Below are positions 4,691 through 20,589 of a stretch of DNA of 59,209 nucleotides, piece after piece. The notes beneath the pieces were generated by a model. That model saw only the letters and a list, made by a program, of their open reading frames with translations, had not been told where the DNA came from and made no database searches. The translations under genes and the position numbers were made by a program. Source of the stretch: Micromonospora chokoriensis (lineage in GTDB: Bacteria; Actinomycetota; Actinomycetes; Mycobacteriales; Micromonosporaceae); assembly GCF_000718555.1 (NCBI RefSeq), contig NZ_JOAN01000028.1, forward strand, positions 1 through 59,209, read 5' to 3'. The stretch's first letter is position 1, and each line of letters opens with the position of its first letter.

Positions 4691-5251
4691 ACCTCATCCG
4701 CTCGCTGGGCCGAGATCGAGCGCGAGGCGCTGTCGCTGCGGTCGTTTCAGCTCGCGTGGATACCTGGCCTCCTTCAGACGAAGGCGTACGCGCTGGCGAC
4801 GCTTGTCGGCGAGGCGTTGACGCCGGCCGAGGCCGACGATCTCGCCGAGGCCCGGCTGAGTCGACAGGCCATTCTGCGCCGGGAGCGCCCGCCGCTGCTC
4901 GTCGCCGTCCTCGACGAGGGAGTCCTCCGGCGCACCCTCGACGGCGACCGGGCCATGATGCGGGAGCAGTGCGAGCGGCTGGCCGAGCAGGCCGCGCTGC
5001 CGAACGTGTCGCTGTTCGTGGTGCCCGCCGACGTCGGCATGTATCCGGGCCTCGGCGGGCCGTTCACCGTGGCCGAGATGCCGGACGGGGCACGGGTCGC
5101 GCATGTCGACAGCCAGGCGCAAGCGCAGCTCATCGACAAGGCGGCCGACGTTGCTACGCTCGATCGACGGTGGGAACGCATTCGCGACGGAGCCCTGTCG
5201 CGTGCACAGTCCCGCAATCTCCTCAGAGAAGCGGCAGCATCATGGACCTGA
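4691..5251 (+). pseudogene. 5'-truncated DUF5753 (XRE-type) regulator
   Basis: From the base after the vapC stop, a frame reads without interruption from SSARWAEIEREALSLRSF through PGLLQTKAYA to AASWT. This is the C-terminal DUF5753 domain of the Streptomyces-type regulators paired with DUF397 proteins. The full family has about 280 residues with an N-terminal helix-turn-helix. Here only about 186 residues remain, the helix-turn-helix is absent, and no ATG or GTG lies near the beginning; the first usable in-frame start is a TTG at 4817. The residual domain could still be made by reinitiation after vapC, but DNA binding is lost. Its stop overlaps the DUF397 start. Confidence 0.75.
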
Positions 5252-5433
5252 CCGGCGCTCGGTGGCGCAAGAGCAGCAAGAGTGGCAACAACGGCGGTGA
5301 CTGCGTCGAGGTGGCCGACAACCTCGTCGGCGTCATCGGCGTACGTGACTCCAAGGACCCGGCCGGTCCGGCGCTCGCCTTCGACCCGGCGGCCTGGGCC
5401 CGATTCCTGGCGATGGCCAAGCAGCAGGGCTGA
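5242..5433 (+). CDS. DUF397 domain protein
   Basis: A 63-residue protein consisting of one DUF397 domain, recognised by WRKSSKSG near residue 8, CVEVAD in the middle and VRDSKDP followed by a Phe/Trp-rich end. In actinobacteria these small proteins sit next to XRE-DUF5753 regulators, as in the whiJ/abaA-type loci that influence development, and are thought to act with them. Here the partner regulator is truncated, so this may be an orphan. The ATG overlaps the end of the DUF5753 fragment. A hairpin follows. Confidence 0.85.
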   Translation: MDLTGARWRKSSKSGNNGGDCVEVADNLVGVIGVRDSKDPAGPALAFDPAAWARFLAMAKQQG

Positions 5434-5446
5434 CCGTTGCACTCAT

Positions 5447-5492: not shown

Positions 5493-6104
5493 TCAGTCCC
5501 CGCTGGCGGCGCGGCGGCGGGCCTCGCGGGTCTTCATGGCGTGCTCCATAAGCGTGACGAGCACCTCCTTGCTGGACTCCCGCTGCCGAGCGTCGCAGAG
5601 CAGCACGGGCACGCCCGGGTCCAGGTTCAGGGCGGCCTGCACCTCGTCGAGCCGGTACTGCCGGGCGTCCTGGAAGCAGTTCACCGCCACCACGAAGGGC
5701 GTACCCCGGCCCTCGAAGTAGTCGATCGACGGGAAGCAGTCGGCGAGCCGGCGGGTGTCGGCCAGCACCACGGCGCCGATCGCACCCAACGCCAGCTCGT
5801 CCCAGACGAACCAGAACCGGTCCTGCCCCGGCGTACCGAACAGGTAGAGCACCAGGTCGTCGCTGATGGTGATCCGGCCGAAGTCCATTGCCACGGTCGT
5901 GGTGGTCTTACCCTCCACCCCGGACAGGTCGTCGATGCCGACCCCCGTCTCGGTCAGCACCTCCTCGGTGCGCAACGGCCGGGTTTCGCTGACCGCGCCA
6001 ACCATGGTCGTCTTGCCCACGCCGAAGCCGCCCGCGACGAGGATCTTGATCGCGGTGGGCAGTGGGGTCGCTCCCGCCGGCCGGTCAGAGTGCCCGTAGT
6101 CCAT
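5493..6104 (-). CDS. cvnD: conservon GTP-binding protein CvnD
   Basis: A 203-residue small GTPase-like protein, last gene of a cvnABCD conservon. The P-loop GGFGVGKTT lies near residue 25, the switch/G3 motif is FGTPGQDR, and the base-recognition region is VAVNCFQDA. In Streptomyces, Cvn proteins form a membrane-associated complex that resembles a eukaryotic G-protein system. The ATG at 6104 lies inside the end of cvnC (20-base overlap), so the two are coupled. What this conservon senses is unknown; the neighbouring terpene genes are a hint only. Confidence 0.92.
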   Translation of the reverse strand: MDYGHSDRPAGATPLPTAIKILVAGGFGVGKTTMVGAVSETRPLRTEEVLTETGVGIDDLSGVEGKTTTTVAMDFGRITISDDLVLYLFGTPGQDRFWFVWDELALGAIGAVVLADTRRLADCFPSIDYFEGRGTPFVVAVNCFQDARQYRLDEVQAALNLDPGVPVLLCDARQRESSKEVLVTLMEHAMKTREARRRAASGD

Positions 6105-6471
6105 TGATTACCGCCTCGAAGATGCTGTTGTCGGGAAGACCGGCCGTGGTCTGCGGCTCGCGGACCTGCACCAGGCTGCGGGCCGCCAGATCGCCGAGGA
6201 GCACCCGGATGGTGCCCACCGGCAGGTCAAGATGGGCGGCGATCTCGGCGACGGACTGTATGCGTTGGCACAGCCCGACGATCGCCAAATGCTCAGGACC
6301 GAGACCGACCTCGGGCGTGACCTCGGCTCGGGTCGCCGTGACCAGGGAGATCAGGTCGAATGTGCCGGTGACCGGGCGGGCCCGGCCGCGCGTCACCGCG
6401 TATGGACGCACCACCGGACCCGCATGGTCATCCACCCACTGATGTTCTGCGGACTCTCCCTGGACCGTCAT
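6085..6471 (-). CDS. cvnC: conservon protein CvnC (DUF742)
   Basis: A 128-residue DUF742 protein. The N-terminal part carries the family signature VRPYAVTRGR, and the middle holds a winged-helix-like segment (SVAEIAAHLDLPVGTIRVLLGDL). It sits between cvnB (8-base gap) and cvnD (20-base overlap), the standard conservon order. Its exact biochemical role in the complex is not settled in the family; the fold suggests DNA or protein binding. Confidence 0.92.
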   Translation of the reverse strand: MTVQGESAEHQWVDDHAGPVVRPYAVTRGRARPVTGTFDLISLVTATRAEVTPEVGLGPEHLAIVGLCQRIQSVAEIAAHLDLPVGTIRVLLGDLAARSLVQVREPQTTAGLPDNSIFEAVINGLRAL

Positions 6472-16873: not shown

Positions 16874-16904
16874 ATGGCCCGAGGTGACCTGCAACGATCG
16901 ACGT

Positions 16905-17477
16905 GTGCCCAGAGTAAGTCAGGACCAGCTCGACGCGCGCCGGCAGGAGATCCTCGCCGCAGCCCGGGCGTGTTTCGCCCGGCTCGGCTACGAGGGGGCG
17001 ACCGTACGTCGCCTTGAAGAGGCCACCGGCCTGTCCCGTGGCGCGATCTTCCACCACTTCCGCGACAAGGACTCGCTCTTCCTGGCCGTCGCCGAGGACG
17101 ACGCAGCGGCCATGGTCGAGACGGTGGCGCGCAACGGTCTGGTGCAGGTGATGCGCGACCTGCTCGCCCGCGCCGTCTCCCCGGACACCACCGGCTGGCT
17201 GGGCAGCCAACTGGAGGTCTCCCGGCGGCTGCGCACCGACCCGGCGTTCGCCCAACGCTGGGCGGAGCGGTCCGCCGCGATCGCTGAGGCGACCCGGGAC
17301 CGGCTGGCCCGCCAGCGCGACGCCGGGGTGCTGCGCGAGGACGTGCCGATCGACGTGCTGGCCCAGTTCCTGGAGTTGGCCTACGACGGCCTGGTGCTGC
17401 ACCTGGCCATGGGCCGACCGGCCGGTGACCTGGGCCCGGTGCTCGACCTCGTCGAGGAGGCGGTCCGCCGCCACTGA
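16905..17477 (+). CDS. acnR: TetR-family aconitase repressor AcnR
   Basis: A 190-residue TetR regulator. The N-terminal helix-turn-helix reads FARLGYEGATVRRLEEATGLS then RGAIFHHFRDKDSLFLAV, which closely resembles C. glutamicum AcnR, as does the C-terminal EVSRRLRTDPAFAQRW. AcnR represses aconitase and responds to citrate/cis-aconitate and iron status in that organism. The GTG at 16905 is chosen because it starts at the family-typical position; an in-frame GTG at 16884 would add seven residues. In corynebacteria acnR adjoins acn, whereas here it lies about 13 kb away. The two related palindromes support the assignment. Confidence 0.85.
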   Translation: MPRVSQDQLDARRQEILAAARACFARLGYEGATVRRLEEATGLSRGAIFHHFRDKDSLFLAVAEDDAAAMVETVARNGLVQVMRDLLARAVSPDTTGWLGSQLEVSRRLRTDPAFAQRWAERSAAIAEATRDRLARQRDAGVLREDVPIDVLAQFLELAYDGLVLHLAMGRPAGDLGPVLDLVEEAVRRH

Positions 17478-17559: not shown

Positions 17560-18483
17560 ATGATCGTCCACGCCGCGTCGGGCGACACCTGGGGCATCCC
17601 CGGTCCGACCTTCATCCGGTACTACATCCTGACCGCCGTCGTGGTGGTGGCGATCGCGGTGTACCAACGGTTCCGTCCTACGGCCGGACCCACGGCTGCC
17701 ACGGCCGACCCGCTCGGCCCGCAGCAGGTCGCGTACCTCAACGGTGGACCTGAGCTCGCCGTGCACGCCGCGCTCGGCGGGCTGCGCGGCAGCGGCGCGA
17801 TCGGCGTACGACCGGACCGCCGGTTGACCACCGTCGGTGCCGCGCCGACCGGCCTCACCCCGCTGGACCAGGCCATCCACTGGGCCGCCCACCAGCACTC
17901 GCGAGTCAAGGATCTGCCACAGGACGAGCGGGTACGCACCGCGCTGGACCAACTCCGCAACGGTCTGGAGCAGCGCGGGCTGCTGGCGAACGACACGCAG
18001 CGGGCCCGCGTCCGCTTCTGGGCGACGATCATGATCGCCCTGCTGGGAATCGGTGTGCTCCGGTTGGTCTCCGGCCTGTTCAGCGGTCACCCGGTCGGTT
18101 ACCTGCTGCTGACCCTCGTCCCGCTCCTGATCGCCGTACTGGTGCTGCGCCGGGTGCCCCTGCGCACCCGGGCCGGCCGGGCCGCGCTGCGCGGCATCCG
18201 CCAGGAGTACACCCACCTCGCGCCGGCCTCCGCGCCGGCCTACGCCACCTACGGAGCGACCGGCGCGGCGATGGGCGTGGCCCTGTTCGGCACCGCCTCG
18301 CTCTGGGCGCTCGACCCGGGCTTCGCCGAGCAGGCCGAGATTCAGCGCCAGGCCGCGTCCAGCAGCGGCTGGACGGGCGGCTCCGACGGCTCGTACAGCG
18401 ACGGAGGTAGCTCCGGTGGAGACGGCGGCAGCTCCTGCGGCGGTGGTGGGGGCTGCGGCGGCGGCGGAGGGTGCGGCGGATGA
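17560..18483 (+). CDS. TIGR04222-type membrane protein with Cys/Gly-rich C-terminal tail
   Basis: A 307-residue membrane protein that I assign to the TIGR04222 group. Hydrophobic segments lie at about 19-35, 153-173, 179-197 and 232-252, with a soluble domain at 40-150. After residue 265 the chain becomes Ser/Gly-rich and ends in CGGGGGCGGGGGCGG, with cysteines at 293, 299 and 305. The only cysteines in the protein are these three. AGGAG precedes the ATG. The stop overlaps the start of the DUF692 gene as ATGA. The tail is the probable substrate of that enzyme, making this a membrane-anchored RiPP-like precursor. Positive charges place the soluble domain inside and the tail outside. Confidence 0.8.
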   Translation: MIVHAASGDTWGIPGPTFIRYYILTAVVVVAIAVYQRFRPTAGPTAATADPLGPQQVAYLNGGPELAVHAALGGLRGSGAIGVRPDRRLTTVGAAPTGLTPLDQAIHWAAHQHSRVKDLPQDERVRTALDQLRNGLEQRGLLANDTQRARVRFWATIMIALLGIGVLRLVSGLFSGHPVGYLLLTLVPLLIAVLVLRRVPLRTRAGRAALRGIRQEYTHLAPASAPAYATYGATGAAMGVALFGTASLWALDPGFAEQAEIQRQAASSSGWTGGSDGSYSDGGSSGGDGGSSCGGGGGCGGGGGCGG

Positions 18484-19298
18484 CCGGCCCGTCCGGGGTC
18501 GGCATCGGCTGGCGTCCGGAGATCGCCGGCTTCGTGGCCGAGCTGCCCGGCCTGCGCTTCGTCGAGGTGGTGGCCGAGGGGGTGCCGTCGTCCGGGCCGC
18601 TCCCGCACGGGCTGGCACAGCTGCGGGAACGCGCGGTGACTGTCGTACCGCATGGGGTGCGGCTCTCCCTCGGCGGCGCCGAGCCGGTCGACCCGGCCCG
18701 GGTCGCCCACCTGGCCTCGGTGGCGCAACGCCTGGACGCCCCGCTGGTCAGCGAGCACATCGCGTTCGTCCGGGCCGGCGGCCTGGAGGCCGGTCACCTG
18801 CTGCCGCTGCCGCGCAGCCGGGAAGCGGTCGACGCGGTCTGCGCCAACGTGGCCCGGGCACAGGCCGAGTTGCCGGTGCCGATCGCGCTGGAACCGATCG
18901 CCGCGCTTGTCGACTGGCCCGACGACGAACTCGACGAGGCGGACTTCCTCACCGAGATCCTCGACCGGACCGGGGCACTGCTGCTGCTGGACGTGGCCAA
19001 CGTGCACGCCAACGCCCGCAACCGGGGTGCCGACCCGCTCGCGCTGCTGGACCGTCTGCCGCTGGAGCGGGTCGCGTACGCCCACGTGGCCGGCGGCGCG
19101 GAGCACGGCGGCTACTACCACGACACCCACACCGACCCGGTGCCGGCGGCGGTGCTGGAGCTGGTCGGCGCGCTCTGTGCCCGGCAGCGCCCACCGGCGC
19201 TGCTGCTGGAACGAGACGGCCACTACCCACCGGCAGCCGAACTCCGCGCCGAGCTGGACGCCCTGGCCGCCGCCGCGGGCTACCCGGCCGTCACATGA
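18480..19298 (+). CDS. DUF692 / MNIO family iron-dependent oxidase
   Basis: A 272-residue TIM-barrel protein of the DUF692 family, now called multinuclear non-haem iron-dependent oxidases (MbnB, TglH, ChrH). The ligand pattern is complete: H58, E92/H93 (SEHIAF), E138 (LEPIA), D171/N174/H176 (DVANVHANARN), H202 (AYAHVAGG), D215/H217 (HDTHTD) and E244 (LLERDGHYP). Known members oxidise cysteine residues of a ribosomal peptide with the help of a partner protein. Here the substrate is inferred to be the Cys tail of the preceding protein. The gene overlaps both neighbours by four bases, so the three products are made together. Confidence 0.9.
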   Translation: MTGPSGVGIGWRPEIAGFVAELPGLRFVEVVAEGVPSSGPLPHGLAQLRERAVTVVPHGVRLSLGGAEPVDPARVAHLASVAQRLDAPLVSEHIAFVRAGGLEAGHLLPLPRSREAVDAVCANVARAQAELPVPIALEPIAALVDWPDDELDEADFLTEILDRTGALLLLDVANVHANARNRGADPLALLDRLPLERVAYAHVAGGAEHGGYYHDTHTDPVPAAVLELVGALCARQRPPALLLERDGHYPPAAELRAELDALAAAAGYPAVT

Positions 19299-19843
19299 CG
19301 GGCGCACCCGACGGCGAGACCCCGCCCCGGGCCGGGCTTGCCGAGCGACAGGCCGCGCTGGTCGCCGCGCTGGTCGCCGGGGGTGAACCGCCGGCGGGGT
19401 TCGCGCCGGGACCGCTGGCCGCCACCCGGGCGGCCCTGCTGCGCAAGCGGGCCGGCGAGGTGGCCCGGCACTGGCCGCTGCTCGCCGCCAGCCTCGGTGC
19501 CGGGTGGTCGACGACCTTCGCCAACTGGGCCGCCCGGCGACCCACCGTCGGGTCACTACGCGATGGTTGGGACCTGGCCCGTGCAATGCACGACCAGCAC
19601 ACGCTCCCCCCGGCTGCCGCCGAGGAGTTGGCCGTCCGGGAGGCACGCCTGCGCTACGACGGGCTCCGGGCGCCGCGTCCGCGCCGGGTGCCGGCGGTGG
19701 GCCGCGCCGGCGGCGCCGTCGCGGTGCAGATCGCCGGCCGGGTACGCCTGCTGCGCCCCGCCCCACGGCCATCGACAGCACCCAGCTTTCATGGCGAGGG
19801 TGCGCCGGATACGGCAGGATCGGCCTCATGGATCTCGGACTGA
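19295..19843 (+). CDS. putative MNIO partner protein (DUF2063-like layout)
   Basis: A 182-residue protein that I do not recognise with certainty. The N-terminal helices (LAERQAALVAALVAGG, then RAALLRKRAGEVARHWPLLAASLGAGW) have the layout of the DUF2063/MbnC-type partners of DUF692 enzymes. These bind the precursor and present it to the oxidase. The C-terminal 60 residues are Arg/Pro/Ala-rich and poorly structured. The ATG overlaps the DUF692 stop as ATGA, and the last 16 bases overlap the start of the SDR gene. The role is inferred from position and helical layout only. Confidence 0.65.
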   Translation: MTGAPDGETPPRAGLAERQAALVAALVAGGEPPAGFAPGPLAATRAALLRKRAGEVARHWPLLAASLGAGWSTTFANWAARRPTVGSLRDGWDLARAMHDQHTLPPAAAEELAVREARLRYDGLRAPRPRRVPAVGRAGGAVAVQIAGRVRLLRPAPRPSTAPSFHGEGAPDTAGSASWISD

Positions 19844-20589
19844 CCGACCGCGTGTACGTCCTCACCGGCGCCTCCCGCGGCCTGGGTTACGCGACCGCGC
19901 AGTGCCTCGTCGCCGATGGGGCGAGGGTGGTGCTCTCGGCCCGGGATCCGGATGCGGTGGCTGCCGCCGCCAAGCAGCTGGGTGGCCCGGAGCACGCCGT
20001 CGGGCTGACCGGCGACCTGAGCGACCCGGAGACCCCGACACAACTCGTCGCCGCCGCCCAGGAGCACTTCGGCCGGCTCGACGGCGCCCTGATCTCGGTC
20101 GGCGGGCCACCGCCGGGCAACGCCGCGGCGGTCACCGACGAGCAGTGGCGGATCTCCTTCGAGACCGTCTTCCTGGGCACCGTCCGCGCGGTCCGCACGG
20201 TCGCCAACGCACTGCCCGAGGGTGGTGCGATCGGGCTGGTGCTCTCCACCTCGGCCCGCGGCCCGGTGCCCGGCCTCGGCATCTCCAACGCTCTCCGGCC
20301 CGGCCTGGTCGGCGCCGCCAAGGACGTCGCCGACGACTACGGCCCGCGCGGGGTCAGAGTGGTCGGCCTGCTGCCCGGCCGGATCATGACCGACCGCAAC
20401 CGGGAACTCCTCTCCGCAGCCGGCGACCCGGAGCAGGCCCGCACCGAGGCGGAGGCCGGCATCCCACTGCGCCGCATCGGCGACCCCGCCGAGTTCGGCC
20501 GGGTGGCCGCGTTCGTGCTCTCCCCCGCCGCGAGCTACCTCACCGGGATCACCCTGCCGGTCGACGGCGGCGCGCTGCGCGGGCTGTGA
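19828..20589 (+). CDS. short-chain dehydrogenase/reductase (SDR)
   Basis: A 253-residue NAD(P)-dependent oxidoreductase with Rossmann motif TGASRGLG near residue 12. The NAG-equivalent region is ISVGGPPPGN, and the C-terminal end is ITLPVDGGALRGL. The usual YxxxK is replaced by a Phe/Arg-poor segment around STSARGPVPGLGISNALR, as in some divergent SDRs, so catalysis may differ from the norm. The ATG lies inside the end of the MNIO partner gene, so it may be cotranscribed with the MNIO genes; whether it belongs to the same pathway is open. Its stop overlaps the mug start as GTGA. Confidence 0.85.
   Translation: MDLGLTDRVYVLTGASRGLGYATAQCLVADGARVVLSARDPDAVAAAAKQLGGPEHAVGLTGDLSDPETPTQLVAAAQEHFGRLDGALISVGGPPPGNAAAVTDEQWRISFETVFLGTVRAVRTVANALPEGGAIGLVLSTSARGPVPGLGISNALRPGLVGAAKDVADDYGPRGVRVVGLLPGRIMTDRNRELLSAAGDPEQARTEAEAGIPLRRIGDPAEFGRVAAFVLSPAASYLTGITLPVDGGALRGL

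Follow-up and report, generated by a model that had tools for sequence, protein, structure and literature searches.

A TIGR04222, MNIO and partner gene cassette in Micromonospora chokoriensis and its candidate substrate, a cysteine-bearing tail

What does an MNIO (DUF692) enzyme act on when its gene lies directly behind that of a large membrane protein, and on which side of the membrane does it act? The question is raised by three overlapping genes in a stretch of 59,209 nucleotides from Micromonospora chokoriensis (contig NZ_JOAN01000028.1, the whole stretch being referred to as the window), which encode a TIGR04222 membrane protein with a Gly/Ser/Cys tail, an MNIO and a partner protein. Our preferred reading, to which we give a probability of roughly 55%, is that of a maturation cassette: MNIO and partner would oxidise the cysteines of the Gly-rich tail, which probably lies in the cytosol, and the product would be a membrane-tethered array of modified cysteines.

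The cassette is a member of a class already described in print, and the view of a first-pass annotation of the window, that the arrangement stands apart from known cases, is not supported in this respect. Antoine et al. 2025 (PMC12452194) present TIGR04222-MNIO-PME-type 2 clusters, i.e. the same three components, where 'PME-type 2' denotes short helical partners. More than 3,500 TIGR04222 proteins, mostly from Actinomycetota and many encoded ahead of MNIO genes, were collected there, and one Micromonospora protein each of the TIGR04222 and PME-type 2 kinds was modelled. It is proposed in the same text that the Cys-rich tail is modified and periplasmic, and the product is described as unknown. 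With respect to that account, new here are a partner domain found in 47 of 47 linked loci and often fused to the enzyme, a tail that looks cytosolic, and the occurrence of the tail on unrelated carriers. No other papers treating TIGR04222 together with MNIO were found in the open-licence literature.

The cassette and its cysteine tail

Both junctions of the cassette are ATGA overlaps, as first annotated, with the MNIO start at 18480 inside the stop codon of gene 1 and the partner start at 19295 inside the stop codon of gene 2 (Table 1). The TIGR04222 match covers residues 22-249 of the gene 1 product, and residues 293, 299 and 305 are confirmed as its only cysteines. The end GCGG is invariant in 50 aligned rows. 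Among 121 close homologues, some of them partial rows, 112 have at least two cysteines within 60 residues of the C-terminus, and 108 are free of cysteines in the remaining sequence. A Cys/Gly tail of this kind was found in one of the 613 open frames of at least 50 amino acids in the window, and the M. chokoriensis genome has one TIGR04222 match and one MNIO match, which adjoin; the cassette is therefore more than a chance arrangement. Homologues come mostly from Micromonospora.

Table 1. Coordinates of the cassette genes and of features of the TIGR04222 protein in the window.
Feature	Position	Strand	Basis
TIGR04222 membrane protein, proposed substrate, 307 aa	17560..18483	+	NCBIfam TIGR04222 175.7 bits, cut-off 43; AlphaFold pLDDT 75.8
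MNIO (DUF692, MbnB_TglH_ChrH) enzyme, 272 aa	18480..19298	+	PF05114 270.2 bits, cut-off 25
Partner protein, 182 aa	19295..19843	+	homologues carry PF26136 (SCO6045-like C-terminal domain)
Gly/Ser/Cys tail, Cys 293, 299, 305, end GCGG, proposed modification site	18355..18480	+	sequence and homologue alignment
Membrane helix 1, residues 15-38, N-terminus predicted outside	17602..17673	+	AlphaFold helix; hydrophobic in family; few Lys/Arg before, more after
Membrane hairpin, helices 145-175 and 180-197, then basic stretch	17992..18150	+	AlphaFold, hydrophobicity, charge
Segment 228-251, probably not membrane-spanning	18241..18312	+	below threshold in 90% of 107 aligned sequences; kinked model

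A class survey of 296 genomes was carried out with profile searches for TIGR04222 and MNIO, which gave TIGR04222 matches in 100 genomes (74 over the cut-off) and MNIO in 66. Regions of up to 20 kb were taken around 88 stronger TIGR04222 matches and around MNIOs not adjoining these, and were annotated with profiles built from the survey's own sequences (genomes are cited as G, loci as L). The tail table holds 88 TIGR04222 match rows of at least 46.7 bits; weaker rows, rows of 44.7-45.5 bits that exceeded the cut-off, and rows that did so jointly with neighbours only, were left out, among them G069, G101, G133, G200, G121 and G102, of which G069 was added later as L141. A Cys-motif tail was defined as at least two [GSA]C[GSA] motifs within the last 60 residues. 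Furthermore, at least 562 relatives were put in order of their similarity to one Parafrankia MNIO, and the best 80 form a named set, which is not a random sample; of these, the 75 loci away from contig edges were counted. Gene calls in the named set and in the neighbour comparison were made by a crude GC-position method.

Cys-motif tails are present in 39 of 53 genomes with MNIO and in 2 of 18 without (71 genomes; Fisher 4e-6), counts that ignore kinship between phylogenetically non-independent genomes; by genus, the figures are 18/19 and 2/9 (2e-4). Both MNIO-less genomes are doubtful exceptions, as the region taken from G079 contains an MNIO fragment (30 bits), judged to be cut by the contig edge, and the tail in G183 was judged probably the product of a wrong frame. 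Four Cys tails stand away from MNIO, all in genomes that bear one. Of the 75 named-set loci, 66 have a Cys-tailed TIGR04222 protein and 2 another Cys tail (68 in total), one of the latter (L248) possibly being a frame-shifted TIGR04222 gene; in 4 loci the only TIGR04222 protein falls short of two motifs, and none is present in 3.

The same kind of tail is also found on other proteins. Frames without TIGR04222 but with a Cys/Gly tail make up 8 of 871 same-strand frames beside an MNIO or partner, compared with 3 of 7386 elsewhere (p 2e-6); one of the eight (L079) is probably a frame-shifted TIGR04222 tail, and 7/871 gives 1e-5. The other seven all stand at MNIO loci with a partner and without TIGR04222. 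Six are peptides of 83-119 amino acids (in G198, G111, G122, G292, G276 and G078), in which one hydrophobic helix is followed by a basic stretch and a Gly-rich tail, with 3-8 cysteines past the helix and often histidine. The gene of such a peptide overlaps the MNIO stop by ATGA in L146 and L152, and that of the partner-holding frame in L154. The L152 peptide has 88 amino acids (4816-5082). The seventh carrier, from Parafrankia colletiae (G284), is a protein of 447 amino acids without a hydrophobic segment. Neither this soluble protein nor the one peptide searched (L152) matched an entry in Pfam or NCBIfam. Tails of the Parafrankia-containing family have on average 1.15 His per 45 residues (13 tails).

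The single-helix peptides follow the MNIO gene; PMC12452194 tells of a search for precursors before that gene, and its 'adjamnio-V' group, very small proteins encoded after MNIO genes, might include them. The recurrence of the tail on three-helix TIGR04222 proteins, single-helix peptides and soluble proteins suggests a wider proposal, on which we would tentatively stake a little less than even odds: that in Actinomycetota an MNIO and its partner recognise a Gly/Cys tail which faces the cytosol and is portable between unrelated carriers, that the product is a protein-bound, non-secreted counterpart of bufferins at the inner membrane face, and that the single-helix peptides are the minimal form of this membrane-held product.

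Several tails were noted in addition. Cys-tailed TIGR04222 proteins of Streptomyces have a W-C motif ahead of repeated SSC-type units, absent in Micromonospora, with the Cys kept in 9 of 9 rows (L062, L063, L067, L071, L072, L087, L104, L115 and L117). At L079 (G128), a Cys-rich Gly/Ser tail in another frame (5804-6163, + strand) lies just after a TIGR04222 gene with a Cys-less end, by frame shift or error. A frame running off the contig end at L158 (G208; 5130-5444, + strand) has repeated CGLRAAG units directly behind an MNIO-partner fusion. Remote from MNIO, L176 (G073) encodes a divergent TIGR04222-like protein (20 bits) with the C-terminal end CGTSCGGGCGGGCGGE.

The MNIO and its partner

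The His, Asp, Glu and Asn positions expected of a DUF692 enzyme are all present in the window MNIO, as first annotated: H58, H93, E138, D171, N174, H202, D215, H217 and E244, each kept in 96-100% of the 47 linked MNIOs. These nine presumably include the iron ligands. Solved relatives are 3bww and TglH. With the equivalog models the enzyme scored 191 bits for BufB (cut-off 310), 155 for HvfB (360) and 24 for MbnB (325). By score it is nearest to the BufABC (bufferin) and HvfABC systems, in which an MNIO and a partner act on cysteines. It differs in scoring below both of their cut-offs and in a partner without the DUF2063 (PME-type 1) domain. Bufferin precursors are short and have a cleavable Sec signal peptide; the proposed substrate here has 307 amino acids and several helices. 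The substrates of TglHI (pearlin pathway) and MbnBC (methanobactin) are short peptides as well.

The window partner gave no Pfam match at E-values up to 10, hence none to DUF2063; among solved structures, its sequence found nothing below E 0.4. Compared with PME-type 2, it is encoded directly after the MNIO, with the ATGA overlap, and has no DUF2063 signature. A TIGR04222 gene lies in the fetched region of 47 of the 66 MNIO loci, and the partner domain was found in all 47, in 27 of them as the C-terminal part of the MNIO frame; it is also present in 13 of the 19 loci without TIGR04222 (60/66 overall) and in 73 of the 75 named-set loci. This supports the first-pass expectation that the MNIO works with a partner. 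The fusion, with a PF26136-type domain behind the MNIO, is found in Streptomyces and is confirmed by independent homologues, as PF05114 and PF26136 occur together in at least 120 homologues of a Streptomyces fusion. In PMC12452194, PME-type 2 proteins are reported in at least 10% of TIGR04222 clusters, many others being apparently partnerless. Over the 296 class genomes, DUF2063 exceeds its cut-off in 3, in every case next to a different, higher-scoring MNIO. A comparison of the partner profile with three DUF2063 proteins gave E 0.012 but a probability of 3.5, the controls being at 0.24 and 0.72.

PF26136 is named after SCO6045. According to PMC4991794, H2O2 raises SCO6045 3.0-fold in S. coelicolor; the response requires HbpS-SenS-SenR and is accompanied by induction of sulfate-to-cysteine genes. 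Judged by the name of the Pfam domain, SCO6045 would itself be an MNIO-partner fusion, and its induction is a possible hint at a redox link of the cassette.

At L127 (G038), TIGR04222 and partner profiles match in one open frame from 3776 (+ strand), with no MNIO in the region and a partial MNIO elsewhere in the genome. In the window, a TetR-type regulator gene (16884-17477, + strand) ends 83 bases upstream of the cassette; a counterpart of 95% identity has the equivalent place in G095, and none was found in 10 other loci scanned. A short-chain dehydrogenase gene (19828-20589, + strand) overlaps the last 16 bases of the partner gene, and its relatives were not found in 11 other loci scanned, a weak result as the query was an approximate reading frame.

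The side of the membrane

The first-pass annotation described a four-helix membrane protein. Three of these helices stand in the AlphaFold model (15-38, 145-175 and 180-197); the fourth is a kinked segment (228-243/245-251), and the model does not decide the side of the tail. The TIGR04222 model resembled no solved structure at E 0.001 or better and the profile matched no solved chain. A match to DUF2207 membrane proteins (DUF2207_C, 20.8 bits, E 3.5e-4) is weak and below the cut-off of 33, and there were zero matches to the protein among plasmid records.

Membrane segments were evaluated with a 19-residue Kyte-Doolittle mean, at a threshold of 1.6, and with insertion scores, on 107 aligned TIGR04222 sequences in which the window protein is counted twice. 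Helices 1, 2 and 3 pass in 98, 93 and 100% of the sequences, respectively (102 sequences for helix 1), and the putative fourth in 10%. The mean insertion scores for helices 1 to 4 are about 0, 1.3, -0.1 and 7.9 kcal/mol. In Cys-tailed Streptomyces members, about 21 polar or charged residues take the position of the putative fourth helix. Positive charge follows helices 1 and 3 and precedes helix 2, with a mean of 5.6 Lys or Arg in the 18 residues after the hairpin (41 Micromonosporaceae rows), and is low in the hairpin loop. This distribution fits three helices with the C-terminus inside. The charge of the N-terminus is low in Micromonosporaceae and less clear in other genera (1.9 Lys or Arg). 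As the putative fourth helix is below the threshold in 90% of the sequences, the tail probably faces the cytosol, contrary to its published placement.

The best-surviving alternative is that published placement, in which the modification precedes or accompanies membrane insertion and the tail comes to lie on the outer side, resembling a bufferin on a tether. In PMC12452194, the periplasmic location is predicted from transmembrane topology. In its favour, segment 228-251 is moderately hydrophobic and borderline in the window protein (Kyte-Doolittle 1.41; insertion +2.7), as it is in most rows from Micromonosporaceae, and in a few relatives, e.g. G107, it is a clearly hydrophobic helix, so an outside tail is possible for the window lineage. 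We nevertheless consider it unlikely for the family. Besides the family-wide hydrophobicity and the polar stretch in Streptomyces, the single-helix carriers have 0-1 Lys or Arg before the helix and 6-8 in the 22 residues after it, a pattern expected of an inside C-terminus, and no export signal is apparent on the MNIO (no predictor was applied). In four Streptomyces genomes, TIGR04222-like proteins without a hydrophobic segment bear a Gly tail with one Cys.

Other substrates and the proposed product

The first-pass annotation proposed a comparison of DUF692 neighbourhoods for co-occurrence with Cys/Gly-tailed TIGR04222 proteins, and named cassettes with Cys-less tails as a result that would refute its interpretation. 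The association holds across genomes, but the refuting result is obtained in part: tail cysteines are missing from 12 of the 47 linked cassettes, and 11 of these belong to a single Streptomyces clade. According to PMC12452194, the C-proximal cysteines are missing in more than a quarter of TIGR04222 proteins. The Streptomyces clade consists of 14 rows, including three TIGR04222-less loci, and has a support of 100/94 in a tree with several long or weak branches. It keeps a Cys-less TIGR04222 paralogue that in other Streptomyces stands beside a Cys-tailed one. Its MNIOs retain all conserved polar positions and are under purifying selection, with a median dN/dS of 0.14 compared with 0.23 in Cys-tailed Streptomyces. 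An intact and constrained enzyme must here act on another substrate. These observations speak against the simple form of the maturation reading, and the structure model of the fused MNIO-partner protein is poor (pLDDT 67, pTM 0.49).

A substrate common to the clade did not emerge from a deeper TIGR04222 search, a search with the Cys-tailed protein of G073, or scans of the loci for small Cys/Gly-tailed frames. The deeper search, in 15 Streptomyces genomes, gave the soluble single-Cys-tailed proteins in 4, most genomes having none; the G073 protein, searched in 24 genomes, found itself and one relative of 34% identity in G101. The three core cysteines of the Cys-less paralogue are conserved in 14-15 of 18 rows, which makes them a possible alternative target.

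The constrained MNIOs of this clade, and three Streptomyces loci (L142, L144 and L158) with a fused MNIO and no TIGR04222 in the region, are also what favours a more general alternative, that the MNIO-partner pair acts on a different substrate throughout, with TIGR04222 an assembly factor or mere neighbour and the Cys tails incidental in some lineages. We regard this as improbable, since unrelated carriers encoded next to MNIO and partner have this tail too. Moreover, in the named set the clusters of MNIO, partner and TIGR04222 are the only ones to cross families, no other gene cluster extends over more than 9 genera, and the three genes therefore look like a self-contained unit. A reading in which the tail cysteines escape modification and serve as metal ligands or in disulphides, with the MNIO in an unrelated role, is very unlikely: metal binding without help is conceivable for Cys tails rich in Gly, which in the Parafrankia-containing family also have His, but such tails are nearly confined to MNIO-bearing genomes.

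The tail cysteines are thus the best candidate target, as first proposed, because the tails both track the MNIO and recur on unrelated carriers; the original observation is confirmed and its interpretation partly supported. In the maturation cassette that we favour, the TIGR04222 domain would be the carrier and the tail the working part. At the inner face of the membrane, the tail would be bound by partner and MNIO, and the MNIO, by analogy with known systems, would oxidise its cysteines with the help of the partner. The tail, judged from its sequence context, would remain in the cytosol, where the enzyme itself is expected, and the mature product would be a tethered array of modified cysteines serving as ligands. 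As with bufferins, its function may lie in metal-ion binding or in the response to redox stress. Since the window MNIO scores nearest to the BufB and HvfB models, a thiooxazole is our first guess for the modified group.

If this is true, MNIO chemistry acts on a membrane-tethered protein tail inside the cell, and an enzyme class of peptide natural products would be widened to protein maturation. The search for a function would move from secretion to the inner membrane face, and clusters reported as partnerless would be explained by a fused or unrecognised partner. Peptides of about 90 residues would offer simple test substrates for the reaction. With MNIO in 66 of the 296 class genomes, this would be of relevance to a large group of soil actinobacteria.

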